From assembly GCF_033705735.1 (NCBI RefSeq), contig NZ_CP131131.1, positions 310,001 through 374,000 on the forward strand: a stretch of DNA of 64,000 nt, read 5' to 3'. This stretch comes from Shinella zoogloeoides. GTDB lineage: Bacteria > Pseudomonadota > Alphaproteobacteria > Rhizobiales > Rhizobiaceae. The notes below the pieces were generated by a model, which was not told the origin of the DNA, made no database searches, and saw nothing but the letters and a program-made list of their open reading frames with translations. Made by a program: the position numbers and the translations under genes. Shown in pieces: positions 23,028 through 64,000 of this stretch; within the stretch, counting starts at the first letter, position 1, and the number at the start of each line of letters is the position of its first letter.

Positions 23028-25697
<2,670 letters not shown>

Positions 25698-32658: not shown

Positions 32659-32674
32659 GCGTTTGGGGGCAGGT

Positions 32675-36821: not shown

Positions 36822-36902
36822 CTGCCCGGACCACACCTTCTTCCCTTGCTGAAACTGTTTTGACGCCTGGTCCTTCGGACAGGCGATGAGGAGACGTCTG
36901 CC

Positions 36903-42044: not shown

Positions 42045-42046
42045 CG

Positions 42047-42745
42047 ATGAGCGAAGCGGACCTAGCCAAACCGTCCCACGGTAAAGGACGAGAGAGGCAA
42101 GCGAAGGCCGGAGATGAATATCTCCTGGATCGGGACCTGGTGGATTTACCGCCGGAGCTGCGCTGGCGGGAATGGATGCTGCGCGTCGAGGCGGTGATCT
42201 TTGCCGCGGCTGAGCCGGTCGGTCGCGAGACACTGGCGCGTGTCGTCGGCAAGGACTGCAGCATCGATCTCCTGATCGACGACCTGCAGGAAGCACTGCG
42301 TGACCGGCCCTATGAGATCGTCTTCGCCGCCGGCGGCTGGCAGCACCGAACGCGTCCGGCTTACGCGTCCGCGATTCGGGCGTCGCAAGCGTCGACGGGG
42401 GGAGGGGCGCTGGCGCTGTCCGACTTCGAGGCGATGGTGCTGGTGGCGATCGCCTATTTCCAGCCGATCACCCGCGGCGACCTGTCGAAAATCTTCGGCA
42501 GGGAGGTCAGCCGCGACACGATCGCCAGCCTACGAGGCGCCAACTTCCTCGCCTCCGGCCCACGCAGTCCGACGCCGGGCGCGCCCTATACCTATGTCAC
42601 GACGAAACACTTCCTCACCGCCTTCGGCATGGAGACGCTGCGCGACCTGCCGGACATCGAAGCGCTGGAGGATGCGGGATTGTTAAGCCGAACGGCAACT
42701 GCCGCAGAAACCGACTTGGCGCCGGCCGGTGACGATGAACCTTAG
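42047..42745 (+). CDS. ScpB-like winged-helix protein
   Basis: 232 residues from the ATG at 42047. An N-terminal charged segment precedes the first winged helix (RVEAVIFAAAEPVGRETLARVVG, LIDDLQEALRDRPYEIVFAAGGWQHRT) and the second (FEAMVLVAIAYFQPITRGDLSKIFGREVSRDTIASLR, TPGAPYTYVTTKHFLTAFGM). This is the ScpB fold that binds SMC-ScpA kleisin. It is an extra, element-borne copy without ScpA next to it, coupled to DUF1403; it may act in element partition or with another SMC-like protein. Confidence 0.85.
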   Translation: MSEADLAKPSHGKGRERQAKAGDEYLLDRDLVDLPPELRWREWMLRVEAVIFAAAEPVGRETLARVVGKDCSIDLLIDDLQEALRDRPYEIVFAAGGWQHRTRPAYASAIRASQASTGGGALALSDFEAMVLVAIAYFQPITRGDLSKIFGREVSRDTIASLRGANFLASGPRSPTPGAPYTYVTTKHFLTAFGMETLRDLPDIEALEDAGLLSRTATAAETDLAPAGDDEP

Positions 42746-44356: not shown

Positions 44357-44885
44357 TACCCGACACTTCACCAGGCCTTGGCGAGAGCGACCCTTGGAAG
44401 AGGCTGCTCATTTCAATCCGGCATTTTGTGGCGAGCTGATCGCGCGTACCCTGCATGGCTACAGCAAACTTGGCCCGAACCCATTGCCGTTTGCCCTAAC
44501 TTTTCTTGTGCTTCCGCTTGCTCTGCATCCGGCAACGCGACAAGCTCTCCCACGAAAGGCAAATACAGCCTTTGCGTCGTGGGCCGGCGAAAACGCTGAT
44601 GTTCTTAGTACGGTGCCCGACCGCGTATTGCGTCTGCGGCCTGTCAGCCGGGAAGCGCTGCTTTTTCTCTCGCAGCTTGGCGCGATCAGAGTCGACAAGA
44701 ATGGCGTGAGTATCGGTGATAAGCCCTTGAGCTTAACCGCCAAGCCTTCGGTTAGCACAGATGAAGTCGATGAGATCCGGCGCACTGCCGGTCTGCTCGG
44801 ACGCTGGTTTGCTCATCAATCACAAGCAGACGCTGTGTTGCAGGCCACGGGCGCTGTCCTTCAGACGATGGGAATAAGGGTATGA
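44349..44885 (+). CDS. ABC-3C middle component
   Basis: 178 residues; starts 5 bases before the stop of the previous gene. The sequence NPAFCGELIARTLHGYSKLGPNPLPFALTFLVLPLALHP is typical of the three-component ABC system middle component. The C-terminal part is helical (IRRTAGLLGRWFAHQSQADAVLQATG) with a likely winged-helix role linking nuclease and ATPase. It overlaps the ATPase start by 4 bases. Confidence 0.78.
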   Translation: MADTRHFTRPWRERPLEEAAHFNPAFCGELIARTLHGYSKLGPNPLPFALTFLVLPLALHPATRQALPRKANTAFASWAGENADVLSTVPDRVLRLRPVSREALLFLSQLGAIRVDKNGVSIGDKPLSLTAKPSVSTDEVDEIRRTAGLLGRWFAHQSQADAVLQATGAVLQTMGIRV

Positions 44886-46816
44886 CACTACAGATTCGAG
44901 CCATCGCTATTTATTCGAAAGAAGGTGAGCGCAGGGATGTTCGCTTCAATCTTGGTGCTCTGAACGTCGTTACGGGCGCCTCGAAAACGGGAAAGTCCGC
45001 CTTGCTCGACATCGTGGACTACTGCTGGGGACGGACGGAATGCACTGTTGCTGAAGGGGAGATTCGCCGGGGTGTATCCTGGTTCGCTGTGCTGTTCGAC
45101 AACAGCGGTGAAGGCATTCTTGTTGCGAGGAAAAATCCAGGGCCGGCCGTCAAGACCAGCGACGAAATCTATTTTCAGCGAAACGTTGAAGACTTTCCGG
45201 AACATCCGGACGTCTTTGTGAAGAACTCCACGGCTGATGGGCTGAGGGCTCGATTCTCGGCGATCCTCGGCATCGCAGAAAACTTATATGTACCAGAGCC
45301 AGGAGCAACGCGGCGTCCATTGGAAGCGTCCTCCGGTCAGGCAATCTTCTTCAGTTTCCAAGGCCAGGACGAGATTGCAAACAGACGACTGCTGTTTCAT
45401 CGGCAAGGTGAGGAACGGATCCCGCAAGCGATTAAGGACACACTTCCTTACTTCGTCGGAGCAATGGGTGAGGATCATTACCTCAAACAGAAACGGTACG
45501 AGGATGCGCGTCGCAGACTTCGGACTTTGGAACGCGAGTTCGCCGAGGCAAAAGCGTTGGCTGACGAGGCCTCCGGTACCGCCCGGAGCCTTCTGCAAGA
45601 GGCAAAACGCGTTGGCCTGCTTCCTCTTGATGCAACAGCGGATTCGGTTGACGATGTAAGGAAACTATTGGTTCAGGCTGAGGCCCCACGCACGCTCACT
45701 TACGCTCACAACGACGATCCGGCCGCCGATCTGACTGATCTGGAAGAACGTCGCAGGCGGCTACGAACCGAGCTTCAAGAGATCCGAGACGAAATCAAAG
45801 ACCTCCAGCGCCTGACTCGAGAGGCAACTGATTTTGAGGCCGAAGCGCGTGAACAGCAGGCACGATTGGCATCGATAGGGCTCGTGGATGTCGGCGAGCG
45901 CGGCCACGAGGTTTGCCCGCTCTGTGATAGTCACCTTCCCGTGCCAGTTCCCTCGGTGAATGAAATACGGCGGTCGCTAGCGGGTTTAGATCGGCAGCTA
46001 AGTGCGGTCCGTCGCGATAATCCTCGGTTACAAGGTCAGATCGCCGAGCTTGAGGCAAAGCGAACCACTCTTGAGTCCGATTTGGGTTTGGTTCAACGCG
46101 ATATCACGACCCGTATCGCCGACAACGAGCGTCTGCGTGTTGAGCAGGATCAATTTACAGAGCAGGCGAGGGTTGCTGGACGAATAGGATATTACTTGGA
46201 AAACGCGAAGGCGGTATCCAATGATGATGGCCTGCGGCTTCAGATCGCACGGGTACGGGCTGAAGTCACGGAGTTGGAGCGTGCGCTCGATCAGGAGGCG
46301 ATGGAAGAAAGGCTTACAACTGCACTCAGTCTCGTCGGTCGTGACATCACAGAATATGCGGGACGGCTGCAGCTTGAACACGGCGAAAATAGCTTACGAC
46401 TTGATCGGAAGAATCTGACGGTTGTCGCGGATACGGTTGATGGGCCGTTATCACTGCCGCAGATTGGCAGCGGTGAAAACTGGGTTGGTTATCACGTGGC
46501 TGCGCATCTCGCACTTCACAAGCTCTTCCGCGCTCGCCGCCGGCCGGTGCCAGCATTTTTGATGCTGGATCAACCTTCACAAGCTCATTATCCGCCAGAT
46601 CGAGATGTTGGCGAGATATCAGGAGGTGAGGATGAGGATCAGGCTGCGGTCGCAAGGCTCTATCGTCTCCTCCTTGATTACTGTGTTGGTCAATCCTCAC
46701 AAATGCAGATCATCGTAACTGATCACGTTGACCTGCTCATTGATTGGTTTCGCGATGCCACGGTCGAACGCTGGCGTGATGGAATAAAGCTCGTTCCGAT
46801 CGCTTGGCTTCGGTGA
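44882..46816 (+). CDS. DUF3732 SMC/Rad50-like ATPase of the ABC-3C system
   Basis: 644 residues. Walker A TGASKTGKSALL (K38) at the N-terminus; coiled coil (about 190-470) interrupted by a zinc hook CPLC (C345, C348) as in Rad50; C-terminal LPQIGSGENWVGYHVAAHLAL (degenerate ABC signature) and Walker B PAFLMLDQPSQ. DUF3732 ATPases occur with the two preceding components in predicted bacterial conflict systems, where the ATPase is thought to sense damaged or invading DNA and license the effector. That role is established by comparative genomics, not shown here. Confidence 0.85.
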   Translation: MTLQIRAIAIYSKEGERRDVRFNLGALNVVTGASKTGKSALLDIVDYCWGRTECTVAEGEIRRGVSWFAVLFDNSGEGILVARKNPGPAVKTSDEIYFQRNVEDFPEHPDVFVKNSTADGLRARFSAILGIAENLYVPEPGATRRPLEASSGQAIFFSFQGQDEIANRRLLFHRQGEERIPQAIKDTLPYFVGAMGEDHYLKQKRYEDARRRLRTLEREFAEAKALADEASGTARSLLQEAKRVGLLPLDATADSVDDVRKLLVQAEAPRTLTYAHNDDPAADLTDLEERRRRLRTELQEIRDEIKDLQRLTREATDFEAEAREQQARLASIGLVDVGERGHEVCPLCDSHLPVPVPSVNEIRRSLAGLDRQLSAVRRDNPRLQGQIAELEAKRTTLESDLGLVQRDITTRIADNERLRVEQDQFTEQARVAGRIGYYLENAKAVSNDDGLRLQIARVRAEVTELERALDQEAMEERLTTALSLVGRDITEYAGRLQLEHGENSLRLDRKNLTVVADTVDGPLSLPQIGSGENWVGYHVAAHLALHKLFRARRRPVPAFLMLDQPSQAHYPPDRDVGEISGGEDEDQAAVARLYRLLLDYCVGQSSQMQIIVTDHVDLLIDWFRDATVERWRDGIKLVPIAWLR

Positions 46817-47130: not shown

Positions 47131-48114
47131 ATGCGTATAGTAGCCTGGTTTGCCGGACTCGCCGTGATTGGAGCGGGCGCTGTCTTCTACCGACCCCTTG
47201 GTGATTTTGGAACAGAAACCTGGCTCATCGTAGCGACCATCGCATCGGTCTGGTCGATGGTTCTCTGGAACTCGATTATCGTCGATCGGGCCGTCGCACC
47301 GCGCGGCGGCGATTCAAGGGGCCTGTTTACCGTTCTGCTTTCGGTTGCCTTGGCGTCGATGGGAGCCGTTTTCGTCGTTGCAATCCACGCTGAGGCTGCC
47401 GGGAAAAACTGGGGCACGTTCGGCGATTTTTTTGGCGGGTTGCTCAACCCGGTTCTGACTTTCCTGAGCTTCATGGCGCTGCTGCTCACGATCATCCTCC
47501 AGCAACGCGAGATCCACAGTGCGAAGCAGGACGCGTTAGATCTTCAGAAGCAGAAGCTTGAAGATCGATTGAGCAGCGAGCGGATGCAGTTCGAAAACAC
47601 GTTTTTTCAGATGGTCTCGATTCACAATACGATCGTCAACTCCATCGATGTCGATCGCGGCACCTCGAAAAACCAGTTGAAGGGGAGAGAATGTTTCAAG
47701 TACTTCCGCGACCAAATGAGGACGTTTTACGAGGCCGATCCTAACCTAGACGAGCTTCAGAAATCGCTCAATGCTCACGATCGCCTGTGGCAGTCGTATC
47801 AGAACGACCTGGCGCACTATTACCGATATCTCTACAACATCATCCGATTCATCAACGAAAGTAACGTCAACAAGGCTCGATACATCCGCATCCTGAGGGC
47901 CCAACTTTCCGACTTTGAGCTCCTCGTGCTCTTCTATAATGGCCTCTTTCCGCTTGCTCGAAAATTCAAAGAGTATGTCGAGTTCTTTACGTTGTTCGAC
48001 AACCTTCCGAAGGATTTGCTGTTCGACAGTTCCCACGAAAAATTCTACGAACCCAGCGCTTTCGATGAAAAGGCGCCGAAAAAGCCCCTTTCCTTCACGG
48101 ATGCCGCGACATAG
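47131..48114 (+). CDS. Putative phage abortive-infection protein (AbiC-like, putAbiC)
   Basis: 327 residues. Three N-terminal TM helices (about 4-20, 31-50, 66-88), then GTFGDFFGGLLNPVLTFLSFMALLLTIILQ (a further helix) and the diagnostic soluble part: coiled coil DALDLQKQKLEDRLSSERMQFENTFFQMVSIHNTIV, then HYYRYLYNIIRFINES and RAQLSDFELLVLFYNGL. This is the putAbiC family of membrane proteins linked to phage abortive infection. The ATG follows AAGGAAGG. Its position between two defence operons supports the role; activity is not shown. Confidence 0.8.
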   Translation: MRIVAWFAGLAVIGAGAVFYRPLGDFGTETWLIVATIASVWSMVLWNSIIVDRAVAPRGGDSRGLFTVLLSVALASMGAVFVVAIHAEAAGKNWGTFGDFFGGLLNPVLTFLSFMALLLTIILQQREIHSAKQDALDLQKQKLEDRLSSERMQFENTFFQMVSIHNTIVNSIDVDRGTSKNQLKGRECFKYFRDQMRTFYEADPNLDELQKSLNAHDRLWQSYQNDLAHYYRYLYNIIRFINESNVNKARYIRILRAQLSDFELLVLFYNGLFPLARKFKEYVEFFTLFDNLPKDLLFDSSHEKFYEPSAFDEKAPKKPLSFTDAAT

Positions 48115-48287: not shown

Positions 48288-51200
48288 TTGTTCGTTCGGT
48301 CGAACGGGGGGCAGTACGCATCGCTGGGCATTGGCAAGCAGATTGACCGGAAAGGGTCTCTCTGTGCTGTCGAATATTTCGATTCACCCACGTCCGAGTT
48401 GGTCGTCCACCAGATTGAAGCTGATCTGATCGAGCGCGTGACGCTCGCTGAGCAGACCCGCATCTATCAATTCGACGAGGCGGCGGGTTCTTGGGAGATT
48501 GGTCGGCTGCTCGACGATCATGGCGACAGCCAACTCGTCCAGTTCCCGAACGGCAAGGCGAAGCACCTGAAGGCCGAGGCGCTCTTCGTGCGGTGGGCTC
48601 TCCCAATCGAGGACCCGATGTTGTTCCTCGCCAACCGGATCAACGAGAGCCCGCGATTTTCCGATGGTCGCAGTGCGTTCATGCGTTCGCAGACCCGCCA
48701 ACGCGCAGCGTCGATGGGAATGTCGGCTCTACTTGCGTCGGCGATCGAACTCGAAGCGCATCAAGTCGAGGTAGTGCGCCGCATCCTTCAGGACCCCGTG
48801 CAGCGCTATTTGCTCGCGGACGAGGTTGGGCTGGGCAAAACGATCGAAGCCGGCGTACTTATCCGGCAATGCATTATTGATACGCAGCAGAAATGCAGCA
48901 TTCTTGTGATTGTGCCCGCAGCGTTAGTCGATCAGTGGCGAAGGGAGCTTGCGAACAAATTTTTTCTCGGGCGCTGCCTAGACCACAGCCTTCACATTGT
49001 TGCACTCGACGACTACGAGAGCATACGCGCGCTTCTGCCTAGCGCTACGATGCTAGTGATCGACGAAGCGCATCATCTGACTGGGCAAAAGACGGTCATC
49101 GGTGACCGAATTTACGCCGATGTTGCTGCAGCGTCTCCATCAATCGACCGTGTCCTGTTATTGTCTGCGACGCCAGCACTCCACAATGAGCGCGGCTTTC
49201 TTGAGATGCTACACCTGCTCGACCCCGCTACTTACCAGCTCGATGATGAGGAGTCGTTTCGGCGAAAGGTCGAAAGCCGCCAGGCGCTGGCGGAGATCGT
49301 GGCCGGTCTGACGATCGAAAACGCGCTATACCTTGACTATACCATCGACCAGTTGGCGACCCTATTTCCCCATGACGAATTGCTGCAGGAGCATGCGGGG
49401 GATTTGCGCAGCGTCATCGACACGATGCCCGATCCCGATGATCCTGCTCTCGTAGAGGCGATCGGACGACTACACACCCATCTCAGCGAAGTTTACAGGT
49501 TGCACCGGCGCATCCTGCGCCATCGGCGGCGGAGCATCGGGGGGCTAACCCCTGACCGTTCTGGCGCCAAGATCATCCGATATCGTAGCACCGATCGCGC
49601 AGCTTTGACTGCCGCCTTGGAAGACTGGCGGTTCGATGAGGCCGTCGAACTCGACGCGGCCGGCTCCGAAAAGCTCTGGAGTGATCGTGTTGTGCGCACC
49701 TTCTGGGAGGTACTCGACCGCGCGTCGCAATATCCGAGTACTGGCCCTGGGATAATCGGTTTCCTCGCCAGCGAAACCGCGGTGATCGGAGATCAAGAAC
49801 GTTTTGCGTCAATCAACCGTTGTCTCGGCCGCGATGGCCTGTTTGAGGACCGGGTACAAGCGCTGCTTGAAGCGCTTGCTCCATTAGTGCGCAGTCGCGC
49901 GCAGTGCGTAGTTTTCTGCTCCGATCCGAAGACCGCCGACGCCCTCGCGCAACGCATCCGTGACGTGTTGGAGATTACGGTCGATCGGCACGATCCAGAG
50001 GACGATGTATGGACAGCTTTTGCAGCGGCAGCCGATCATCCTGTGCTCGTCTGCGACCGACGAGCCGAGGAGGGTCTAAACCTACAGGGCGGAAATAAAG
50101 TGGTTGTTCATTATGACCTGCCGCTCAACCCAAACCGGATCGAGCAGCGACTCGGCCGGGTGGATCGCTATGGATCCGGCGAAGCCGTGCGATCGCTCGT
50201 GTTGGCTTGCGAGGACGATCCCCTGGAAGTGGCTTGGATAGGCTATCTCGACACCGCCCTAAGGGTATTCGACCGTTCGGTTGCGAGCCTTCAATATTTG
50301 ATCGAGCAGACTGTGCGCGAGATCAGGCCCGCACTTTTCACGGATGGCGCAGAAGTGATTACCGATCTGACAGCGAGCGGCGCAGGCGACCAGGGTTTCA
50401 TCGAACGGGAGATCAAATCGATAGATCAACAGGATGCCCTCGATGCGTTGGGAGCGCCTCCCACCGATATGATCGATGAGCTTTCGGAAATCGACGATGA
50501 TTGGCAGTCGCTTGCGACTGATACCGCAGCCTGGCTCGACCAGACTCTGCAGTTCGGCCGCGCCGACGAGGCGCGCCTCCTCGCCGGCGCCGGTGTGGCG
50601 GCACCATTTCGTTACGTCTATTCGACCTCCAATCCGCATACCCTGATCTCGCTTCCCGCGTTCCTGGCGCAGTGCGCGGACGCGCTCGATCTGGGATTCG
50701 GGTCGAGGGGCGTGCGGACGATCGGGACGATTCCGTATACATTCCGCAGACGCACTGCGCTCAGTCGTGTCGAGCGCGCCAATGGCGTTGGTCTTTTGCG
50801 CTATGGCGATCCCTTGATCAGTGGAATGACCGCGCTCACGGACGCCGACGACCGCGGTCGATCCTTCGCTATGTGGCGCTTCGTGCCCGATCATATTGGC
50901 GACCCGCTTGCCGAATTCTATTTCCGATTCGATTTCATTTTGGAGGCGGACAGCGCCGTGGCGATGCGCGTGCTAGCAGCGCACGACCGTGATACGAGCG
51001 CTGCCCGCGCAGCCGTTCGCCGGCGAGGCGACATGGCGCTCGCTCCGTTCTATCGCTCGATTTGGCTCGATCGTGAGCTGAACCCTGTCCATAACGAGGC
51101 ACTGTTGGCGAGATTAGCGCGTCCGTATAGCGTCAAGCCCGACCGTAGCGGAGCACTCGATCTCAACCTGAATTCGAGGAGATGGCAGCGTCTGCTGGAG

Positions 51201-51536
51201 TTGCAACTCCCGGAACTCGCCTATTGGAGAGAGCTTTGCGGAAAGGCTAGATCGGTGGCGGAGGATGCACTTCGTGCTGATCCAGAACTGATAGCAAGCC
51301 TCGGCCAGGCAGAGCAGCGAGCGGCTCGCATCGATCAAGGGCGCCTAGGGCAACTGCGGGTGCGGGCACGTGCGGAGGGCCGCGAAGGAGAAAGTGCGGA
51401 GCTTGCATTCGAGGAGAAACTCGCCGTTGGACTGCGGGCCGGCATCAATGTCCCTCGTGTTCGGCTTGATACGATTGGTGCAGTCTTCATCTCGGCGAGC
51501 CGATCGGCGACCGACCAAATTTCGGGCGGCATCTGA
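48288..51536 (+). CDS. dpdE: DpdE, SNF2/RapA-like helicase of the Dpd system
   Basis: 1082 residues from the TTG at 48288 (GGGGAGG 6-7 bases upstream). Superfamily 2 helicase: Walker A ADEVGLGKTIEAG with K184, DEAH box at 259-262 (VIDEAHHLTG), motif III LLLSATPALH, and the C-terminal motif VI RIEQRLGRVDRYGSG, closest to RapA/SNF2 enzymes. The N-terminal 130 residues form a SH3/Tudor-like substrate domain. In Dpd clusters, dpdE-K are thought to restrict DNA lacking 7-deazaguanine modification. The stop overlaps dpdF (TGATG). First gene of the dpdE-J unit. Confidence 0.85.
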   Translation: MFVRSNGGQYASLGIGKQIDRKGSLCAVEYFDSPTSELVVHQIEADLIERVTLAEQTRIYQFDEAAGSWEIGRLLDDHGDSQLVQFPNGKAKHLKAEALFVRWALPIEDPMLFLANRINESPRFSDGRSAFMRSQTRQRAASMGMSALLASAIELEAHQVEVVRRILQDPVQRYLLADEVGLGKTIEAGVLIRQCIIDTQQKCSILVIVPAALVDQWRRELANKFFLGRCLDHSLHIVALDDYESIRALLPSATMLVIDEAHHLTGQKTVIGDRIYADVAAASPSIDRVLLLSATPALHNERGFLEMLHLLDPATYQLDDEESFRRKVESRQALAEIVAGLTIENALYLDYTIDQLATLFPHDELLQEHAGDLRSVIDTMPDPDDPALVEAIGRLHTHLSEVYRLHRRILRHRRRSIGGLTPDRSGAKIIRYRSTDRAALTAALEDWRFDEAVELDAAGSEKLWSDRVVRTFWEVLDRASQYPSTGPGIIGFLASETAVIGDQERFASINRCLGRDGLFEDRVQALLEALAPLVRSRAQCVVFCSDPKTADALAQRIRDVLEITVDRHDPEDDVWTAFAAAADHPVLVCDRRAEEGLNLQGGNKVVVHYDLPLNPNRIEQRLGRVDRYGSGEAVRSLVLACEDDPLEVAWIGYLDTALRVFDRSVASLQYLIEQTVREIRPALFTDGAEVITDLTASGAGDQGFIEREIKSIDQQDALDALGAPPTDMIDELSEIDDDWQSLATDTAAWLDQTLQFGRADEARLLAGAGVAAPFRYVYSTSNPHTLISLPAFLAQCADALDLGFGSRGVRTIGTIPYTFRRRTALSRVERANGVGLLRYGDPLISGMTALTDADDRGRSFAMWRFVPDHIGDPLAEFYFRFDFILEADSAVAMRVLAAHDRDTSAARAAVRRRGDMALAPFYRSIWLDRELNPVHNEALLARLARPYSVKPDRSGALDLNLNSRRWQRLLELQLPELAYWRELCGKARSVAEDALRADPELIASLGQAEQRAARIDQGRLGQLRVRARAEGREGESAELAFEEKLAVGLRAGINVPRVRLDTIGAVFISASRSATDQISGGI

Positions 51537-52167
51537 TGGCCGTGCATGATTTCGGAAGCTTGCAGGATGCTCTGCTAGACCTCGCCAAGGCTGTCAGACA
51601 GTCGCCGATCACAGATGGCATTTTTGATAGGCTGACCCAAGTGCTCCTAGCCGCGAAGGAAGCGGGGCGGCTGAACAGTCCGCAGGACGCGATGGCGCTT
51701 TTCCGGCACGTGCTGCGCCGGCAATCGCTGCGCGCGGGTCAGCAGGCGCAGTTGCGCGTTCCGTCCGGAGTTGGTTGGCCCAGCCGAACCGATTGGGCGA
51801 GCTTTGGCATCCGTGCCCATAGTGAATCGAGCGGGCATCTCCTCATCGAAGCCCGGCCATGGCATGCGGCCTGGCTCGGAGACAGTGACAACCCGGTCTT
51901 CGAGGATGTCTTTGCCGAGCGGAATGTCCGGCTCGACTGGCAAAGGCCGATCGATCCCTTTCTTAGCGAGGCGAGCGGTTTCGACACCTACGTGTCCCCG
52001 GGACAGCGCGAAGCCGTGCGCAGCGCCTTTCTGCTGCCGCCCGGAGAGACTTTGGTGGTCGCTCTGCCGACTGGGTCGGGCAAGAGCTTTATCGCCCAGG
52101 CCCCCGTCCTCGCGCGGGGCATCGAAGGCGGTCTATCGCTTTGTATTGTGCCGACGACAGCGCTGGT

Positions 52168-52172
52168 GCTCG
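52168..52172 (+). repeat. Target-site duplication of the IS21 element (left)
   Basis: GCTCG, repeated at 54506-54510 on the right side; 5 bp is a usual IS21 duplication length. Confidence 0.85.
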
Positions 52173-52316
52173 TGTCAGTACCGGAGCAATACTCCCCAAT
52201 AGTGCCGTTTGAATCTTCCCCAGGTGCTGCGGCCGCCGGTCTTCCGGGGCGGGCCCCGGAAGACCGGCGGCGCGTCATCGCCGATACTCCTTCCGATGGT
52301 CGGGAGGGGGATTTTG

Positions 52317-54454
<2,138 letters not shown>

Positions 54455-54505
54455 CTGGGGAATTTTACTTCGGCACTTCTGGGGAAAATTCACGCGGCAT
54501 TGACA

Positions 54506-54510
54506 GCTCG
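54506..54510 (+). repeat. Target-site duplication of the IS21 element (right)
   Basis: GCTCG, identical to 52168-52172. The dpdF frame resumes immediately after it (DQSRQMRD). Confidence 0.85.
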
Positions 54511-56455
54511 ATCAATCGCGGCAGATGCGAGACATGCTTAAACGCCGCTACCCACGACGCGAAGTGCCCGCGCTTGCCTGGCATGCCGGCCTCCGCACGG
54601 AGGAGCGCGCCGCGATCAAGTCCGCCATCCGCGAGGGTCGCCAAGGCATTCTCTATTGTTCACCCGAGGCGGTGACGAGCGCGCTGCTGCCCTCACTTTA
54701 CGATGCGGCGCGCGCCGGGCTGATCTCGTATCTTATCGTCGATGAGGCCCATTTGGTGAGCCAATGGGGTGATGGCTTCCGCCCCGCCTTTCAAATGCTG
54801 GCGGGCGTTCGCCGCGGTCTGCTTGACGCATGCCCCGAGGGCCGGCGGTTCAGGACGCTTCTGATGTCCGCGACCCTGGCGCCTGACACGGTGGAAACAA
54901 TCGACGCGCTGTTCGGGCCCGCGCGCACTGTCCAGATGGTCGCCTCCGTCCATCTTCGGCCAGAGCCGCAATACTGGGTGCACCGCGAGGATGATCCCGA
55001 AGACAAGGACCGTAAGGTTCTCGAACTCCTGCGGCACGCGCCGCGCCCGTTCATCCTTTATGTGACGAAGCGCAGTGATGCGAAACGATGGATGCGGTTG
55101 TTGCGGAGCGAAGGTTATGCGCGTATCGATTGCTTTCACGGCGAGACGCCGCATGCCGATCGTCTGCGCATCATCGACCAGTGGTCTGAGGGCGGGCTCG
55201 ATGGAATCGTCGCCACCTCGGCCTTTGGGGTCGGTATCGACAAACGCGATGTGCGCACGGTCATTCATGCCGCCGTGCCCGAGACACTCGATCGCTTCTA
55301 CCAGGAAGTGGGGCGCGGCGGACGCGATGGGTGTCCCTCGGCGTCGTTCCTGATCTACTCGCGCGAGGACCAGGAGACGGCCCACCAGATCGCCTCGCCT
55401 TCTTTGATCAGCGACGCTCTCGCGTTCGAGCGGTGGTCGACCATGTATGGTCAAAGCGCGCAACTCGATACCATAGGGCAGCTGCTCGAGGTGGACCTGG
55501 CGGTCGTTCCTCCGCGGCTGCGGAGGCAGTCAGACTATAACGAGTCTTGGAACATGCGCACTTTGATCATGATGGCTCGCGCTGGCATGCTGGAACTGGA
55601 ATCGCAGCCGCCGTCCCGTATTGCGCAGCAGGAGGACGAGAGCGAAACCGCCTTTGAGCTCCGCAGCGATGAGCATTGGTCCAAATATTTTCAGCGCACC
55701 GTCGTTGGCATGTCGGAGTTCGGCCACCTCAGCCGCGAACGCTTCGAAGCGCTGATCGGTCAGGAGCGGCAGCGCTCGTTCGATGCAGCGACCGAGAACC
55801 GCGTGCTGCTCGACAAGCTGCTCAGCGGTTCGACCGAGGTTTCGCTGCTGCTGGATCGTCTCTACCGCAGTAACGCCCCGGGGCGTTCGGTAATTGTGTC
55901 ACGCGCGTGTGGGGGATGCCCGACGCATCGACGCGAGGGGACGGCTAACACGGAGTATCCGGCGCCTCCCGCCTACGGGATCGAGCAGGTCGGCCAGTTC
56001 GACCTCAGCCTCTTTTCTGATCGTTTCCCGCATCTCGACTTGAACCAGCCGATTATCCTGCCCCTCGAGGACCTGGTCGACGAAGCTGAGATCGTCGGCC
56101 TGCTCCGAAATTTCGTTGCGATGTTCGGCGTGCGTGAGATCGCGACCTCCGCGTCGTTTCGCCGGCGCAATCCGGCGCTGTCAGTCCTGCACAAGCACGG
56201 CGAGGATCATGTGCTGTTGTTGCAGACGCTCGAGGAAGAAATGCTGCGTCCCTCGTCCTACGAGCTTCCCCGGGTGACACTCTGGACGGACACGACTGGC
56301 ACGACGCTGCCGAAAGATTTATTCATCATGAAGCGACCGCTGCATGTCATTATAGCATCGGCCTCGACGCCGGACCCATGGAACTTCGTGCGCCGCATTG
56401 CCGACACCGGTTCCAATGTGCTAGCGGTCGACCAATTCAACCTTGGAGCGCGCCT

Positions 56456-57358
56456 GTGAGTCTCCTCAACCAAGCAAGCGACGGGCTATTCAATGTGCTG
56501 ATCGTGCTGGTTCGCGCGCTCGTTCGCTTTGGTCCAAAGAGCCGCGAAGATTTAATCCTTGCTTGTGGCGGCGCCACCGACGCGTGCGATACCAGCCAAT
56601 TGACGAAAACGTTGAACCGCTGGACCGAACTTGGCTTGTTCGGCGAGGAAAACGGGTCCGTTATCATCGCCGAGCCGTACCGCTCCGCGCTCGGCAAGAA
56701 CGCCGACGAAGCGGAAGCCCGCCTTCCGAAAGTGGCACGCACGGTGGCGTTGCACTCCGCAAACAATGCGCGTTTCTGGGAGAGCGAGGGAGCCAAGAGC
56801 GCGGACCTGTCGCGCGGCGTGGCTTGGATGCTCACCCAGGACGTTTATACGCTCGACGTCAATTCCGACCGTTTGGCTGAACTAGAGGGGCGGCAGCTGA
56901 TCGACAGCGGCACGCAGAAGATCGCCCAGAACAATACGCGCTGGAACGGCCTCAAAACCTGGATGCTCTATCTGGGATTCGCCCGCGACGGCATGCAGTG
57001 GGTCGTCGATCCAACGCAGGCGCTGCGCGAGGCGCTTCCCGAGATCTTCGGTTCGAACCGAGAATTGTCCGCTCCTGCCTTTGTGGAGCGGGCTGGCGCG
57101 GTGCTGCCGGTCCTCGACGGAGGCGCCTACCGGGTGCAGGTCGAGGGTGCGTTAAAGGAGAGCGCCTGGCCCAGACTACGTGCTGGCCTCGTATCCTCTT
57201 CCATGTCGCGGGCTATCCAGCGACTCGATCGTGAGGGATTCATCACGCTCTCAAACCGAAGTGATACCGAAGGCGTCGTATCGCTCACCGGCAGCAATGC
57301 GCGCACCTGGCGGGACGTCTCGCATGTAGCCCTGGCGCAATCAGGAAAGGCGCGTTGA
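56456..57358 (+). CDS. dpdG: DpdG, Dpd system protein of unknown activity
   Basis: 300 residues from the GTG at 56456, which overlaps the dpdF stop (GTGA). It is mostly helical with winged-helix-like segments (LNRWTELGLFGEENGSVIIAEPYR, AIQRLDREGFITLSNRSDTEGV). No catalytic motif is visible. Position between a RecQ-like and an ATPase gene is that of DpdG. Its stop overlaps the dpdH start by one base. Confidence 0.75.
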   Translation: MSLLNQASDGLFNVLIVLVRALVRFGPKSREDLILACGGATDACDTSQLTKTLNRWTELGLFGEENGSVIIAEPYRSALGKNADEAEARLPKVARTVALHSANNARFWESEGAKSADLSRGVAWMLTQDVYTLDVNSDRLAELEGRQLIDSGTQKIAQNNTRWNGLKTWMLYLGFARDGMQWVVDPTQALREALPEIFGSNRELSAPAFVERAGAVLPVLDGGAYRVQVEGALKESAWPRLRAGLVSSSMSRAIQRLDREGFITLSNRSDTEGVVSLTGSNARTWRDVSHVALAQSGKAR

Positions 57359-60300
57359 TGCTCGAGAGATATTGGCCTGGGGCCGACGAGGTCAACGCGT
57401 GCATCAAGAACGAAGCTGAGACCGCGGACGTGTCGGTTCTGCTGGCAGTTCATCAGCCGACTCCGCTCACCACGCGCAATGCCGGTACGAATATCGAGTC
57501 TCCGGCAAGCGAGCAGGAACTGCTCGATGCCTTTCTTTCCGACGACGTGCCGGGTGGATATATGCTGTTTCCGATCACCGGACCTTCCGGCGTCGGCAAG
57601 TCGCACATCATCCGCTGGCTCGACGCGCAACTCCAGCGCTCGCCCAAGCGCGATCGCCTCCACATCATCCGTATTCCCAAGAGTGCAAGCCTCCGACGCG
57701 TTGTCGAACTCATCCTCGAGCCGTTGGATGGCGATCCTCGCTTCGAGAGATCACGATCGGAACTCGCGCGTGCATTTGCGGAGATCGACAAGCGAAAGGC
57801 CGTAGTACTGTTCCGCGCGCAGATCGAGAACGCGCTGGCAGGCCGGGCGGAGACGCTGTTGCTGGAGGCGCGCGAACATAAGGACCGCGCGGTGGAGTTG
57901 AGGCCGCTGATCGGTCATGCCCAAATGCTGCCGAAGCTGTTTGGGGACGCCGCGCTCAAGGACCATTTCGATGAGGTCGTCCTTGCGCGAGTCGTCGCGC
58001 GCGCGCTGCGGGGACGGGAAGACGGTGCGGAGGGAGACGAAACCCAATCGCAATTCTTCGCCGAAGACCTGCTTCTTCCCGATGCGATCGATCTTAACGA
58101 AGCGGCCCTGCCGGTAAAGACCTATTATCAGACTCAGCTTGCCGTCCAGGACGTGCGCCGCCGGCAAGCCGCGGCGGACATTCTCAACACGATCGTCGAT
58201 ACTGCTATTGGCAATGTTTTTCAGCTCGAGCAGAGCACCGGTGGCATCACCCTACAGGACATTATCCTGGGGATCCGTGAGATCCTGCTCAAGGACGACA
58301 TGGACCTGGTGCTGCTCGTGGAGGATTTCGCCGCGCTGTCGGGCATTCAGGATGTGCTTCTCAAAGTCTGTGTGCAGGAAGGCACCCATGACGGCAAGAA
58401 GGTGCGCGCCACCATGCGCACGGCGCTCGCGCTCACAGACGGATATCTCGCCTCGCGTGACACGATCCTGACGCGCGCGCAACGCGTCTGGGTGGTCGGC
58501 CACCGCGAGCAGAGCGATGATGAGATCAAGCGCGCCGTGACCGAGATGGTCGGCGCCTATCTGAATGCGGCCCGCTGGGGCGAAGACGGCCTGCGCAAAC
58601 GCTTTGACCGTCGCGGCGCCGACGATGCTCTCACCGGCTGGTTGCCAGCCTGGCAGGATGAGGAGCAGAGCGACGAGGAAGCCGAGGCGCTGACCGCTTT
58701 CGGCTTTTCTGCGCGCGGCCACGCGCTATTTCCGTTCAACCGTCTGGCGATCGAGCAACTCGTCCACCAGCATCTAACGGAGGCAAATCGGCTCGTCTTC
58801 AACCCACGCCGTGTAATCAACGAGATCCTCCGCCGCCCCATGCTGATGCGAGGCACGTTTGTCAGCGGGAGCTTCCCGCCGCCCGAATTCCACGGGCTGC
58901 GCCCGAACGCCTATCTCGCCGGTCTGGTCCGGCAGGTAAGCCAGCCCGAGCAAGTCAAGCGGCGCTTGGGTTCGGCGCTGGCGGTATGGGCCGGCAATGC
59001 GGCGGATCAGGCCGCGCTTGCCCATGTGCCGCCGGCGATCTTCTCGACCTTCTCGCTACCGACGCCAGCCGAACTCGCCAACGTGGCGTACGTACCGACA
59101 CCCACTCCACCAACCTTGCCGGCAGGCTCGACCCTCGAAGAAACTCCGCCCTCCGCGCCTCCTCCAGCGCGAGCCGATCACGATCCGCGTGTCGCGGCCT
59201 GGTCGAAGAAGTTGGATGCTTGGGCGTCTGGTACCGAGTTGGTTCAGGCTGACGCGCGTGAGCTTCGAAGCGCCTTGGCGGTGATGCTGAAGGGTGCAAT
59301 CAATTGGCCGGCACTTCGCATTCCGGATCAGGAGATCAAGGCTACTTGGCTAGCTATCGCCGGGTCGCGCAACAATCCGGTCGGCGGTCGCATCCTTGTC
59401 GTTTGCGATAGCCATGACGACCCGGAAGGTGCGCTGCGCGAAGGCTTTCTCGGTGCACTGCGGTTCGGCTTCAACGGTCATCGCTGGGATTATCCCGAGG
59501 CAGATACTGACTATGTCGCGAGCGCCGCGATCATCGATCGTTTGGTCGCGCAGTTGGTCCCAACGCTCGTTGCGGAAGCAAATGCGCAGACCGCGGTGAT
59601 CGGCCGAGCCCTACTTAATCAATCGCGCATCGTCGGCCTTTCCCCTCCGGTTCGGCCGGCTAGCGCCGAGCCGCTTCTGCGCGGCCTCTTCTCGCCGCCG
59701 CCGCAGGTGGAGACGCAAGCGTTTGAAGAAGGCTGGGATCAGCTTCGCGCCCAGGCGACGGGGTCGGTCAACGGCCGGAGCACGCGCACGATCCTGCAGC
59801 AGCTACTGCTCGATCGCAGCGCCAGCTTCCAAGGCACCGGAAGCAAGCCCTTCGCGGTCGACAGCCCCCGGCTGCTCGACGCGCTTGCCTGGGATTTGCC
59901 GGCGGGGCCGCTTCCGGACGGGTTGCCGGACGAGGCGCGGACCTTCATCCCGACCATGACCGACGCGCGCATCTGGGGAAAGCTCCAGTCGGTCATAGCC
60001 AAGCTTCGTGCCTTCCGCAGCGAGATCACTGATTATGTAGATGAGAGCTTCGACAAGGGCGCTTTCGTTGCCGACTTGCGCGAGATCATCCCGCTGCTGC
60101 AGAAGACCAACTGCTGGCCCGCTAATGTCACGATCAAGCTCAGCGAGTTCGAAATGCGCCTAACGGAGTTTCAGACCAGCCGCTTCGTAGACTTGGTTGA
60201 AAAGACGGCGACGATCGTAGACGAAGCGGATCGTGAGCAAATCCCTAAGTTGCTCAACGCGCTTGGGTCGCTCGATCTCGGATTGATCCAGAGGACCATG

Positions 60301-60468
60301 TCCTTCCTGACCCTCGCCAACGAGATCGTGTCGCAAGCTCAGCCGCGCGTCACTCAGCAGGAGGCGGTTCGGGGCCAATCGGATCCCAACTCCGTTGCGG
60401 CGGAGATCACGAGCCTGCTCGAAGGCGCGAGTGGAAAGTCGCCCGTGGCAGCGGAGGCCGCCGAATGA
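57358..60468 (+). CDS. dpdH: DpdH, large P-loop ATPase of the Dpd system
   Basis: 1036 residues from the ATG at 57358. P-loop ITGPSGVGKSHII (K81); Walker B DLVLLVEDFAALSG near residue 320; between them a helical insertion. The region after residue 540 contains a proline-rich linker (PTPTPPTLPAGS, about 580) and a second, helical domain to the end. Architecture and place match DpdH. Presumed motor coordinating the restriction complex; no nuclease motif visible. Confidence 0.82.
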   Translation: MLERYWPGADEVNACIKNEAETADVSVLLAVHQPTPLTTRNAGTNIESPASEQELLDAFLSDDVPGGYMLFPITGPSGVGKSHIIRWLDAQLQRSPKRDRLHIIRIPKSASLRRVVELILEPLDGDPRFERSRSELARAFAEIDKRKAVVLFRAQIENALAGRAETLLLEAREHKDRAVELRPLIGHAQMLPKLFGDAALKDHFDEVVLARVVARALRGREDGAEGDETQSQFFAEDLLLPDAIDLNEAALPVKTYYQTQLAVQDVRRRQAAADILNTIVDTAIGNVFQLEQSTGGITLQDIILGIREILLKDDMDLVLLVEDFAALSGIQDVLLKVCVQEGTHDGKKVRATMRTALALTDGYLASRDTILTRAQRVWVVGHREQSDDEIKRAVTEMVGAYLNAARWGEDGLRKRFDRRGADDALTGWLPAWQDEEQSDEEAEALTAFGFSARGHALFPFNRLAIEQLVHQHLTEANRLVFNPRRVINEILRRPMLMRGTFVSGSFPPPEFHGLRPNAYLAGLVRQVSQPEQVKRRLGSALAVWAGNAADQAALAHVPPAIFSTFSLPTPAELANVAYVPTPTPPTLPAGSTLEETPPSAPPPARADHDPRVAAWSKKLDAWASGTELVQADARELRSALAVMLKGAINWPALRIPDQEIKATWLAIAGSRNNPVGGRILVVCDSHDDPEGALREGFLGALRFGFNGHRWDYPEADTDYVASAAIIDRLVAQLVPTLVAEANAQTAVIGRALLNQSRIVGLSPPVRPASAEPLLRGLFSPPPQVETQAFEEGWDQLRAQATGSVNGRSTRTILQQLLLDRSASFQGTGSKPFAVDSPRLLDALAWDLPAGPLPDGLPDEARTFIPTMTDARIWGKLQSVIAKLRAFRSEITDYVDESFDKGAFVADLREIIPLLQKTNCWPANVTIKLSEFEMRLTEFQTSRFVDLVEKTATIVDEADREQIPKLLNALGSLDLGLIQRTMSFLTLANEIVSQAQPRVTQQEAVRGQSDPNSVAAEITSLLEGASGKSPVAAEAAE

Positions 60469-61199
60469 GCACTTCGCTTCCTGCTCGCACCAAGGCGCTT
60501 CGCGAACGACTGGTTGCGCTCGATCTGCTTGGTGCGAATGTCGAGGAAACAGGGCTGCTCGAGGACCTGCGCTCGGACCTCGCGCCGCTCGCGGCCGAAC
60601 TCAGCCGCGCCCTTGACCATCGTGCGCTGCTGCTCGGTTCGGGAATCGAAACGCCCGAACCACCCTCGCTCAAGACGGCACGCAAACGGGCCGCGACACT
60701 ACTCGAACGCTTTACGGCGGAGCGAAAGGCAGCCGCGCTCAAAAAGGGCACTGGTTGGGCCAATCTGCTCAAGGAGATAAAGACGGCCTCCACGGACGTC
60801 TCCGACTCCGTCGTGCGTGCCTGGAAGGGATATCGGCAAACCGTGTTCACCGGCGAGGCGCCAGCATTGGTGAAAGGCCGCATTGCCTTCACGCCGGCGA
60901 ATAATGCCGCGTTCAAGACCTATGAACAACTCCACCAGACGTTCCGAGCCGAGTTCGACAAGCTCCCAGCGGACGAGGCAGCGATCGGACGCGTGAAGGC
61001 ACTGGCGGCACGACTTACCGAGACGGCGAAGGAGTTCGACTTCGACGTGCCGGTCGACGTGAAGCGCTTCCTCGAGGCCATCCAGAGCGGGGGAGCGAAG
61101 CTCGACCTGCTGACCGAAGCGGTCCTCAAATGGCTCAACGACAATGATGCGTTCGACAATTACCGTATCGTGCCGGGGAATGCCGATGGAAGCCGATGA
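60465..61199 (+). CDS. dpdI: DpdI, Dpd system protein of unknown activity
   Basis: 244 residues, start overlapping dpdH by 4 bases (ATGA). Entirely alpha-helical, with probable coiled coils (LRERLVALDLLGANVEETGLL, KALAARLTETAKEFDFDVP). No catalytic motif. The order dpdH-I-J identifies it; sequence-based confidence is lower. Stop overlaps the dpdJ start by 14 bases. Confidence 0.72.
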   Translation: MSTSLPARTKALRERLVALDLLGANVEETGLLEDLRSDLAPLAAELSRALDHRALLLGSGIETPEPPSLKTARKRAATLLERFTAERKAAALKKGTGWANLLKEIKTASTDVSDSVVRAWKGYRQTVFTGEAPALVKGRIAFTPANNAAFKTYEQLHQTFRAEFDKLPADEAAIGRVKALAARLTETAKEFDFDVPVDVKRFLEAIQSGGAKLDLLTEAVLKWLNDNDAFDNYRIVPGNADGSR

Positions 61200-64000
61200 A
61201 GCTCTGCTGCTCGCCGCGCTCGATGAGATCGAGCAACGTGAAGCCCGGCTCCTGACATGGGGCCTGGTCGATGGCCACGTCTCAGCGGGCGAATTGCACG
61301 GCATTATCGATGCACTGCTCGACGATCCGCGATTGGGCGCGGGGGTTTCTTTCGCGGATGCAGGTCACGTCATCGTCGCGCTGATCGATCGTGCCCTCCT
61401 GTTCGACGTCGGTGAGGTATCGGGCTCGCGATATCGGTCGCGGATGGCGGAAGGCGTGCGTCTACTGTTCCGGTTGCGCCAACTCTTTCCGCAACATCGC
61501 GGACCCATCGGCTGGCAGGCCGCGCCGACCCTCGTTGCCGACTTCCGCTTCATTTGGCGCCGACGCCGATACCCGCGGCGAGAAATCGACGCAGCGACTG
61601 CGCTCGAGACGATTGCGTCAGCAACGCCCGATCAGGCCGCGCGCGCTGCCCTCTCGGCGCTCGTCGATAGCTATGGGCCAAGATTTGCGCTTGCAGGCTT
61701 TCAGGTCGCGGCCGCTGCGCGGATCCTTGGGAGCTTTGAGGGCTCGCAATCGACAGCCACGCTTGTCAGCGCCGGCACCGGTAGCGGCAAGACCATGGCC
61801 TTCTATCTGCCCGCGCTGTCGCGGATCGCCTCGCATATACAACGTGATGCCGTCGGCGACCGGTGGGTCAAGGTCCTCGCCCTTTATCCGCGCAACGAAC
61901 TGCTCAAGGATCAGTTCGCCGAGGTCTATGGCCAGTCGCGCCGGCTCGATGCGTTGCTCGCGGCGCGCGGACGCAGGAAGATCCTGATCGGCACGTTCTT
62001 CGGTCCGACGCCTCGGTCCGCAGAAAAAGCCCACGAGGCGCGCAGCGGCTGGCGACAAACCTCCGCCGGTCTCGTCTGCGAATATCTCCGTTGTCCCTCG
62101 CCGGGTTGTGACGGCGACATGGCGTGGCGGGACGCGGACCGGCGCACGGGGCGTGAACGGCTCGAATGCCTAGAATGTTGCGCCGCCATCGAGAGCGACG
62201 AGATCATTCTCACCCGCGATCGGTTGCAGTCCGAGACGCCCGACATCCTGTTCACTACCACCGAGATGCTCAACCAGCGCATGGGGGACGACCGTTTCCG
62301 GCATCTGTTTGGAATCGGCGAGCGTGCGCAGCGACCGGTGGAGATGATGCTGCTGGACGAAGTCCACACCTACGCAGGTAGTTCCGGTGCTCAAGTTGCC
62401 TTCCTCTTACGTCGCTGGCGGCGACTCCTCCGGCGGCACGTCAGCTTTGTGGGCTTGTCCGCCACGCTCAAGGACGGTGCGCGCTTCTTTGCGCAATTGA
62501 CCGGCCTGTACGAACAGGCGTCGGCCGAGATCGCCCCTTCCAACAGTGACATGATCGCGGAAGGTGCCGAGTATTTGCTCGCGCTGCGCGGCGATCCCGT
62601 GTCGCGCACCGCACTGCTGTCGACGACGATTCAGACAGGGATGCTCCTTTCCCGGCTTCTCGACGCGCCGGATGAACGCAAGAGCCAGGGCATCATCGGC
62701 GAACGTGTGTTCCTGTTCACCGACGACATCGATGTTACAAACCGCATGTATTTCGCCATGCTCGATGCCGAGGGTCGACGGAGCAGCGGTGTACCCGACT
62801 TGGCGAACAAGCCGGACGGTGGTCTGGCTTCGCTGCGTCGTCCGCTGCCGGTCGAGCACCGCAAGCTGCATGGGCAGGATTGGGAGGCGGTGGTTGAGAT
62901 CGGCCACACTCTCCAGCCGCAGGATCGCAAGGCGATCGGGCGCGTGATGTCGATGGATCCGGGGGTCGGCAACAATCTCGACATTATTGTCGCGACCGCT
63001 TCGCTCGAAGTTGGGTTCAACGATCCGCGCGTCGGCGCGGTCATCCAGCACAAGGCACCCCGCGACGTTGCGCAATTTCTCCAGCGCAAAGGTCGCGCTG
63101 GCCGATCACGCCTGATGCGGCCTTGGACCGTCGCGGTGCTGTCCGACTATGGACGGGACCGTCTCGCCTACCAGGGCTATGACCTGCTGTTCGATCCCGA
63201 GTTGCCGCTGCGTACGCTACCGATCGCTAACCGCTATGTGATGCGCATTCAGGCGGTCTATGCGACGCTTGACTATTTGAGCCAAATGCTAGGCCCCTCC
63301 CGACCGGGAAGCGTGTGGCTGGACCTATCGAGCAGCACCGACAACAACTATCAGCGGGCGCGGCAGACAGCGCTCGCCGGCGTGATCCGCCGCATCCTCA
63401 CCATCCCTGCCGAACTCGACCGCTATGTGTCCTATCTCGCCTCGGCGCTCAAGGTCGATGAAAGCGCGGTCACGCCCTTGCTCTGGGATCACCCCAGGCC
63501 GCTCATGACGCAGGTCCTGCCAACTGCGCTTCGCCGGCTCGAGAGCAACTGGCGCGCTTGGGGCGAGCCCGGCGAGGATCATCAGGTCTTCAACTCGCCT
63601 CTACCTGAATTCGCGCCGGCCAACCTGTTCAGCGACCTCAACCTTCCTGAAGTCGATATCGTCTTGCCGCAACCCGGCAGCGCAACGCCCGAGCGGGTTG
63701 CTATGCCGATCGCGCAGGCCCTGCGCGAGTTCGCGCCCGGCCGCGTGTCGCGGCGATACGGCATCAGCCATGCGTTCGAGCGGCATTGGTTATGCCCGGC
63801 CCTCAACCAGAACCGCGGGCAGACTGTGCCGCTCGAGCCGCTCGCCCGTCTCGACCGCCTCGGCGATTGGCGCATCAATGTCGCCGGTTCGGCTCGGCTG
63901 GTCCCCGTCTATCGGCCGCGTGTTCTCGAAGTCCAGCCACCGCCCGCTACTGTCGTCGATACGTCCAACGCCCGACTTCGCTGGCGCAGTCAGATTGTCG
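61186..64000 (+). CDS. dpdJ: DpdJ, DEAD/DEAH-type helicase with zinc finger, 3' truncated by window edge
   Basis: 938 codons are visible and the frame is still open at the right edge. Walker A SAGTGSGKTMAFY (K202), DEVH box at 391-394 (LLDEVHTYAG), SATLKDG, then LDIIVATASLEVGFNDPRVGAVIQHKAP and FLQRKGRAGRS (motif VI). Before the DEVH box, CEYLRCPSPGC and LECLECCA form a four-cysteine (or more) zinc-binding insertion, typical of DpdJ and DrmA-like helicases. Starts at the ATG at 61186, 14 bases inside dpdI. The rest of the gene, and probably dpdK, lie beyond the window. Confidence 0.85.
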   Translation, partial: MEADEALLLAALDEIEQREARLLTWGLVDGHVSAGELHGIIDALLDDPRLGAGVSFADAGHVIVALIDRALLFDVGEVSGSRYRSRMAEGVRLLFRLRQLFPQHRGPIGWQAAPTLVADFRFIWRRRRYPRREIDAATALETIASATPDQAARAALSALVDSYGPRFALAGFQVAAAARILGSFEGSQSTATLVSAGTGSGKTMAFYLPALSRIASHIQRDAVGDRWVKVLALYPRNELLKDQFAEVYGQSRRLDALLAARGRRKILIGTFFGPTPRSAEKAHEARSGWRQTSAGLVCEYLRCPSPGCDGDMAWRDADRRTGRERLECLECCAAIESDEIILTRDRLQSETPDILFTTTEMLNQRMGDDRFRHLFGIGERAQRPVEMMLLDEVHTYAGSSGAQVAFLLRRWRRLLRRHVSFVGLSATLKDGARFFAQLTGLYEQASAEIAPSNSDMIAEGAEYLLALRGDPVSRTALLSTTIQTGMLLSRLLDAPDERKSQGIIGERVFLFTDDIDVTNRMYFAMLDAEGRRSSGVPDLANKPDGGLASLRRPLPVEHRKLHGQDWEAVVEIGHTLQPQDRKAIGRVMSMDPGVGNNLDIIVATASLEVGFNDPRVGAVIQHKAPRDVAQFLQRKGRAGRSRLMRPWTVAVLSDYGRDRLAYQGYDLLFDPELPLRTLPIANRYVMRIQAVYATLDYLSQMLGPSRPGSVWLDLSSSTDNNYQRARQTALAGVIRRILTIPAELDRYVSYLASALKVDESAVTPLLWDHPRPLMTQVLPTALRRLESNWRAWGEPGEDHQVFNSPLPEFAPANLFSDLNLPEVDIVLPQPGSATPERVAMPIAQALREFAPGRVSRRYGISHAFERHWLCPALNQNRGQTVPLEPLARLDRLGDWRINVAGSARLVPVYRPRVLEVQPPPATVVDTSNARLRWRSQIV

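Follow-up and report, generated by a model that had tools for sequence, protein, structure and literature searches.

A Dpd (7-deazaguanine) locus with two DpdB paralogues and an IS21-interrupted dpdF in Shinella zoogloeoides

We analyzed a window of 64,000 bp (G000:C2:310001-374000) from the four-contig, 5.79-Mb genome of Shinella zoogloeoides. Together with the DNA to its right, the window very probably holds a complete Dpd (7-deazaguanine) restriction-modification locus. It is of an alphaproteobacterial type that encodes two DpdB paralogues, and an IS21 element in dpdF has very probably disabled its restriction half. A first-pass annotation had assigned positions 48288-64000 to the Dpd system. 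This identification of a known system is sound. The novelty lies in the IS-interrupted dpdF, in the independent assortment of the two halves of the locus, and in a pair of genes, encoding a membrane protein and a HAD hydrolase, that is linked to Dpd in other genomes.

The Dpd genes and their genomic setting

The Dpd assignment is strongly supported by PADLOC profiles, which identify dpdE, dpdF, dpdG, dpdH, dpdI, and dpdJ, all on the forward strand. The SNF2-like helicase gene dpdE (48288..51536; 894.5 bits; Pfam SNF2 and Helicase_C) starts with TTG and encodes a Walker A and a DEAH motif. It is followed by dpdF, described below, and by dpdG (56456..57358; 190.8 bits), whose start we place at the GTG at 56456 and not at the first ATG of the open frame, because of the GTGA overlap. 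The large P-loop ATPase gene dpdH (57358..60468; 464.8 bits; Pfam AAA_22) precedes dpdI (60465..61199), which matches its profile weakly (25.2 bits) and is kept in place in 10 of the 11 named relatives, the eleventh locus being cut before it. The DEAD/DEAH helicase gene dpdJ (61186..64000; 1211 bits for the part in the window) continues to G000:C2:375739. The gene order and the five junctions described in the first-pass annotation are all present in the sequence (dpdE/F TGATG, dpdF/G GTGA, dpdG/H TGATG, dpdH/I ATGA, and a dpdI/J overlap of 14 bases at 61186-61199), as is its picture of a SNF2-like DpdE, a helicase DpdF, a P-loop DpdH, and a DEAD/DEAH DpdJ with CxxC.

The remaining Dpd genes, which had been suggested to lie to the right of position 64000, were found there. 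After the end of dpdJ come dpdK (165.4 bits) and dpdD (234.7 bits), and then, convergent on the minus strand, VUT, queC, queD, queE, dpdB2 (402.1 bits), dpdA (555.8 bits), dpdB1 (443.0 bits), and dpdC (347.0 bits). Hence, all the restriction genes from dpdD to dpdK are present, dpdI with the weak score given above, and dpdF is the one that carries an insertion. The genes queC, queD, queE (radical SAM), and VUT were matched by Pfam and lie beside dpdB2, as expected for a supply of preQ0; a second queC occurs elsewhere in the genome. Residues 1-424 of DpdA align to the solved structure of a DNA-guanine transglycosylase, 7ui4 (E 9e-100), and the protein keeps a GDCGAF stretch and the CxCxxC cysteines. 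Its length of 455 residues was considered as a sign of damage and rejected, since five other copies have the same length (G001, G008 twice, G009, and G022). Both DpdB keep DGQQR, and a DndB-like domain occurs in DpdB (Pfam); extra dpdB copies are already reported (n=801; PMC11888242). The dpdC, dpdB1, dpdA, and dpdB2 genes of the strain are open frames. The four genes are also long open frames in all 16 loci compared, ours included, although one dpdC is truncated where its stretch ends. Seven of the 64 copies contain one stop each, always within 16 residues of the start or 9 residues of the end of the sequence extracted.

The description of the region as rhizobial agrees with the closest DpdF by identity, which are from Ensifer (95%), Phyllobacterium (92%), and a Rhizobium MAG (91%). 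The locus had also been placed in a tRNA-Gln island, and this is borne out in part. The tRNA-Gln (29039-29113) does adjoin a tyrosine-integrase-like open frame (29016-31301) whose integrase Pfam match is below the cut-off, but another genome of the species (G029), where DpdA has no match, matches the window at 98% over 25454-42691 (the left limit is that of the fetched stretch) before diverging. The tRNA-Gln, integrase, and scpB region is thus independent of Dpd. At G029 C1 285229, which corresponds to position 42691 of the window, other cargo begins in that genome, including an ImmA/IrrE-like peptidase (named by eye), so the site behind scpB (42.7 kb) is a variable cargo site. In the same-genus genome G022, the Dpd locus is also near relatives of duf1403 and scpB (58% and 71% identity). 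A second copy of the tRNA 3' end, which would mark a right island border, was not found in the 100 kb examined, and there were only scattered partial matches of our right flank to G029 and three other genomes, or of the G029 cargo to our genome. DpdA is rare: it was found in 2 of 21 genomes of the genus and in 3 of 397 sampled from the order, our genome being counted in both.

Several other genes were observed around the locus. Lamassu/ABC-3C-type genes (LmuA 184.7 bits, MC3, and LmuB 447.8 bits) occupy 43139-46816, upstream of dpdE, and a putative AbiC-type gene (47131-48114) lies just upstream of it. A C5 cytosine methylase frame (33335-34573, minus strand) matches the 324-position Pfam profile over positions 2-136 only and looks like a remnant. 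To the right of dpdC lie a frame of 787 residues that looks recombinase-like by eye and gave no Pfam match (L002 16169-18532, minus strand), and a gene resembling a serine recombinase, also by eye (L003 370-1266, minus strand).

An IS21-family element inside dpdF

The first-pass annotation spoke of six consecutive genes, and its Dpd finding did not mention an insertion sequence splitting dpdF. The gene is in two pieces, separated by an IS21 element with its istA and istB. The 5' piece (51536..52172, plus strand) encodes 212 residues with Walker A (motif I) before the frame enters the IS; scanned as the open frame 51536-52444, which runs into the element, it scores 157.5 bits over positions 4-217 of the 859 of the PADLOC DpdF profile. 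The 3' piece (54506..56459, plus strand) encodes the DEAH motif II and the C-terminal helicase domain with motif VI. Scored from its first ATG, at 54525, it reaches 536.4 bits over positions 225-855. The break thus falls inside the first RecA-like domain. The element (52173..54505, plus strand; 2333 bp) has TGTCA...TTGACA ends with sub-terminal inverted repeats and is flanked by a 5-bp target duplication, GCTCG, at 52168..52172 and 54506..54510. It encodes the transposase IstA (52311..53576, plus strand; Pfam rve and Mu-transpos_C_2) and the helper ATPase IstB (53573..54454, plus strand; Pfam IstB_IS21, 266.4 bits), and so has the two genes, terminal repeats, and short target duplication of the IS21 family.

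The ends of the element are fixed by an identical second copy at the end of contig C4 (2333/2333 bases). This identity suggests that the insertion may be recent, with one flank of the second copy being visible, since that copy ends the contig. The element matches 193 records of the plasmid collection, and in 30 of these the match covers 80% or more of the element. Among the 15 matches listed, identity is 86.1-88.6% where the annotation names the ISRel3 family and 95.0% for a copy on an Agrobacterium tumefaciens plasmid. The element shares with ISRel3 (IS21 family) the istA/istB genes, the 2333 bp, the terminal repeats, the target duplication, and this DNA identity. It is an ordinary copy, and only its position inside dpdF is of consequence.

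When aligned with the uninterrupted dpdF of Sphingomonas G002 and Ensifer G008, our gene gives two blocks with the same break and a 5-bp overlap; the overlap is longer with Phyllobacterium G001 because the match runs by chance a few bases into the end of the IS. The two halves of dpdF adjoin in all 11 named relatives. The gap between the matched parts is 15 bases in 10 of them, and L014 is the same once 8 unmatched residues are allowed. In one MAG (L022), dpdF and dpdJ contain frame breaks that may be sequencing errors. No second DpdF was found in our genome, the next match having 147.6 bits against 542.3. Since the IS genes are on the same strand as dpdF and the element ends in TTGACA, the 3' piece of dpdF and the genes dpdG to dpdK may still be transcribed.

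Three other explanations have to be weighed against this account. An assembly artefact, i.e., a misjoined repeat, has very little probability: the identical second copy does end contig C4, a typical break at a repeat, but both flanks on C2 are dpdF sequence sharing the duplicated GCTCG, as transposition leaves and as is not expected from a misjoin. That the genes belong to another helicase system (BREX, DISARM, or Druantia) is virtually excluded. While DpdE, DpdF, and DpdJ also touch models of BrxH, DrmA, DrmD, or DruE, the Dpd models win clearly for DpdE, DpdF, DpdH, and DpdJ. The best non-Dpd model for DpdE, BrxHI, has 127.1 bits, and DrmD 118.5, against 894.5 for DpdE itself. The presence of dpdA, dpdB, and dpdC downstream in the same locus refutes this alternative. 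The match of IstB (163.7 bits) to a model named DrmD is likely a model artefact, since its Pfam match identifies the protein as IstB. As a practical point, automated runs with this model (PADLOC PDLC02630) could call a false DISARM at 53573-54454.

A system that still restricts is improbable, although it has more in its favor than the previous two. DpdF could be dispensable, its halves could work in trans, or the IS could be present in only part of the population. Both halves keep long frames (302 aa, IS-encoded residues included, and 644 aa from an internal ATG), the overlaps downstream of dpdF are intact, and other parts of the system can be missing elsewhere: in Methylobacterium and Caulobacter, nothing in the 29 kb examined matched dpdE. 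Against this, the split leaves Walker A and DEAH on opposite sides, none of the named relatives has separated halves, and even the divergent loci of Methylobacterium and Caulobacter keep a DpdF-like helicase. Hence, we favor a disabled restriction half: with DpdF cut between motifs I and II, marking is expected, and restriction is likely to be poor or absent.

The roles of QueD/E/C, DpdA/DpdB, DpdC, and DpdD-K follow the known pathway (PMC11888242, PMC12839542). By homology, preQ0 would be made by QueD, QueE, and QueC and imported by the VUT transporter, DpdA and the DpdB ATPases would swap guanine in DNA for preQ0, and DpdC would turn it into the amide (dADG). In relatives where the system is intact, DpdD-K would then attack DNA lacking the mark, whereas our strain would mark its DNA and restrict poorly or not at all for want of DpdF. 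Such a break may be tolerable, because the loss of restriction, unlike that of modification, spares the host DNA. The break falls in the half where it is expected and would be survivable, although a single interrupted gene in a single genome does not test this asymmetry statistically.

Different histories of the two halves

The restriction cassette extends over about 48221-68583 and the modification cassette over about 68740-75552. The border between them is sharp at the DNA level, as restriction homology stops at 68523-68583 and modification homology starts near 68740. A possible structured element at this border gave a z of -2.06. We compared concatenated restriction proteins (DpdE, the 3' part of DpdF, DpdH, DpdJ, DpdK, and DpdD) and modification proteins (DpdB1, DpdA, DpdB2, and QueC) across 12 loci; DpdC, DpdG, DpdI, QueE, QueD, and VUT stayed outside the concatenations. 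Some rows are partial, i.e., the matched parts of the G022 genes, the frame-broken dpdF and dpdJ of G009, and the contig-cut dpdD of G006. Ten of the 12 loci were fetched by similarity to DpdF, which preselects likeness in restriction, and G022 came from a DpdA search.

The two halves are discordant. Our locus and that of the same-genus G022 share 93% identity in modification and 34% in restriction, and the opposite is found with Sphingomonas G002 (restriction 89%, modification 61%) and with the Rhizobiaceae MAG G003 (81% and 54%). Between Sphingomonas and Sphingopyxis, restriction is 59% and modification 81% identical. Over all pairs, the rank correlation of identities between halves is 0.05 (Mantel p 0.31). 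Splitting each half in two gives internal correlations of 0.97 for restriction and 0.83 for modification. Leaving out G022 changes the three figures to 0.13 (p 0.23), 0.94, and 0.84, in that order. Gene by gene, correlations are 0.90-0.98 among restriction genes, 0.55-0.80 among dpdC, dpdB1, dpdA, dpdB2, and queC, and -0.11 to 0.24 across halves. Some weak association may exist, since leaving out G022 raises the cross values to as much as 0.35 (for dpdC and dpdE). AU tests (LG+G4, quick trees), on groups that were named after the trees had been seen, point in the same direction. The modification data reject the restriction clade of our locus, G001, G008, G009, and G002 (p 4e-8; 2e-6 with G003 added), and the restriction data reject a sphingomonad clade (p 1e-4 with three members, 2e-63 with four) as well as the grouping of our locus with G022 (p 0.01, with a very long branch). 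Orientation also varies: six of the 12 loci are convergent (ours, G001, G008, G009, G003, and G010) and the other six are collinear. These comparisons indicate that the modification and restriction halves assort independently and would have been joined as separate cassettes.

Two additional observations were made at these loci. In Phyllobacterium, a remnant of a second VUT gene lies beside dpdD (L047 16461-16693), possibly a scar of cassette exchange. In L048 and L049, identity to our proteins is 41 and 46% for DpdC, 62 and 59% for DpdB1, 87 and 85% for DpdA, and 82 and 82% for DpdB2. This suggests that DpdC and DpdB1 are faster evolving or separately exchanged.

Restriction genes and possible other effectors beside the marking cassettes

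A DpdA match was found in 26 plasmid records, of which nine were opened (that of Rhizobium WYJ-E13 being without annotation). The genes beside the marking cassette vary. They are dpdD-K-J-I-H in Agrobacterium vitis and dpdD to dpdE in Enterobacter, and in Methylobacterium there is a DpdF/DpdG/DpdH-like set (DpdF 695 bits, DpdH 1025, DpdG only 17.7), with homologues in Caulobacter and in genome G059. DpdJ-like matches occur in Caulobacter, Skermanella, and G059. In the Acetobacter stretch, DpdA and DpdC have matches, and neither DpdB nor restriction genes were found. The divergent restriction type lies behind the marking cassette (L099 19447-26733; L097 19100-26169; G059 C1 about 665950-673281) and comprises genes resembling dpdF, dpdG, dpdH, and possibly dpdI. 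Behind them, on the opposite strand, comes a very large gene, which the Methylobacterium and Caulobacter annotations call an AAA protein and which is DpdJ-like in Caulobacter and in G059.

A different pair of genes sits directly behind VUT or queC of the marking cassette in several genomes. It encodes a membrane-type protein of 259-304 residues with matches to PycTM-like profiles and a HAD hydrolase. Eight copies were found, all at Dpd loci (L054 12860-14522; L094 18657-20313; L101 18658-20317; L098 18076-19614; L095 24678-26367; L047 14725-16414; L048 3503-5207, minus strand; L019 4497-6094). They are from S. americanum, Rhizobium WYJ-E13, Bradyrhizobium 41S5, A. vitis, Phyllobacterium, Novosphingobium, and both Dpd loci of Ensifer LCM 4579. 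The membrane protein occurs in 4 of 72,556 plasmid records, each time at a Dpd cassette. A search of 16 whole genomes, of which 15 had been chosen for Dpd, gave four copies, again all at Dpd loci. It was found neither in our genome nor in a sample of 397 genomes from the order, none of which was known to carry it. The PADLOC PycTM profile matches four of these proteins with E 1.6e-9 to 1.1e-6. With Pfam (E up to 1), one of five gave a PycTM match, at 14.7 bits and hence short of the 27.2-bit cut-off, and the other four gave none; a PDB search with a profile of the protein gave two weak matches only (best E 0.043). Its annotated neighbors are VUT or queC and the HAD hydrolase (confirmed by Pfam in the two scanned); the adjacent pyrimidine cyclase that Pycsar would have is not among these annotated neighbors. 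The pair occurs together with the restriction module in the first locus of Ensifer, Phyllobacterium, Novosphingobium, and A. vitis. At the other four copies (S. americanum, WYJ-E13, Bradyrhizobium, and the second Ensifer block), our DpdD-K had no match in 29 kb (E 1e-4) or 35 kb (E 1e-5). A divergent set is possible there, because our DpdH, DpdG, and DpdE also miss the Methylobacterium stretch, or the restriction set may lie on a different replicon. In Ensifer, a full set is present at another place in the genome. Among the open-licence papers listed on these subjects, no title or abstract opening describes this pair or the swapping of Dpd modules.

For comparison with known systems, we used the layout of Enterobacter cloacae pPOL9A, which we take to be of the S. 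Montevideo type of enterobacterial Dpd. Our locus has in common with it the protein families and the convergent operons, with dpdE-F-G-H-(I)-J-K-D facing the operon of dpdA and dpdB. It differs by its two DpdB flanking dpdA, by having queE, queD, queC, and VUT inside the operon, by its far diverged proteins (DpdA 42%, DpdH 27% identity), and by its IS-interrupted dpdF. The loci of Ensifer sp. LCM 4579, Phyllobacterium endophyticum, and A. vitis CG957 have the same order and orientation as ours, with restriction proteins 84-96% identical in the first two and DpdH, I, J, K, and D 90-94% identical in A. vitis. However, dpdF is uninterrupted in Ensifer and Phyllobacterium, and all three have the membrane protein and HAD hydrolase genes between VUT and dpdD, where our locus has none. 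In the Dnd/Ssp systems (PMC10853773), the phosphorothioate marking module is often decoupled from the restriction module and pairs with other effectors. The likeness to Dpd is this decoupling of marking from restriction, whereas the chemistry and the proteins differ, save for the DndB-like domain in DpdB.

We tentatively suggest, without regarding it as the probable outcome, that the alphaproteobacterial marking genes (dpdC-B1-A-B2-queEDC-VUT) are a mobile platform for different executioners. These would be restriction modules that are near-identical with marking about 61% alike, or 34% alike with near-identical marking, the shortened DpdF/G/H type, or the PycTM-like and HAD pair with no dpdE-K nearby. 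If this is true, the pair would kill the infected cell rather than cut DNA, and restriction would read a chemical mark, not a sequence co-recognized with its partner. A 2025 review states that the restriction activity of Dpd "has not been further explored" (PMC12707154). Our strain is a naturally occurring candidate for a state in which DNA is marked and not restricted, and the independent exchange of halves amounts to a complementation experiment done by nature. Should one restriction module function alongside marking enzymes that are 61% alike, a close fit between the proteins is unlikely to be needed and restriction may read the mark itself. The membrane protein and HAD hydrolase may be a second kind of effector linked to 7-deazaguanine DNA marking.
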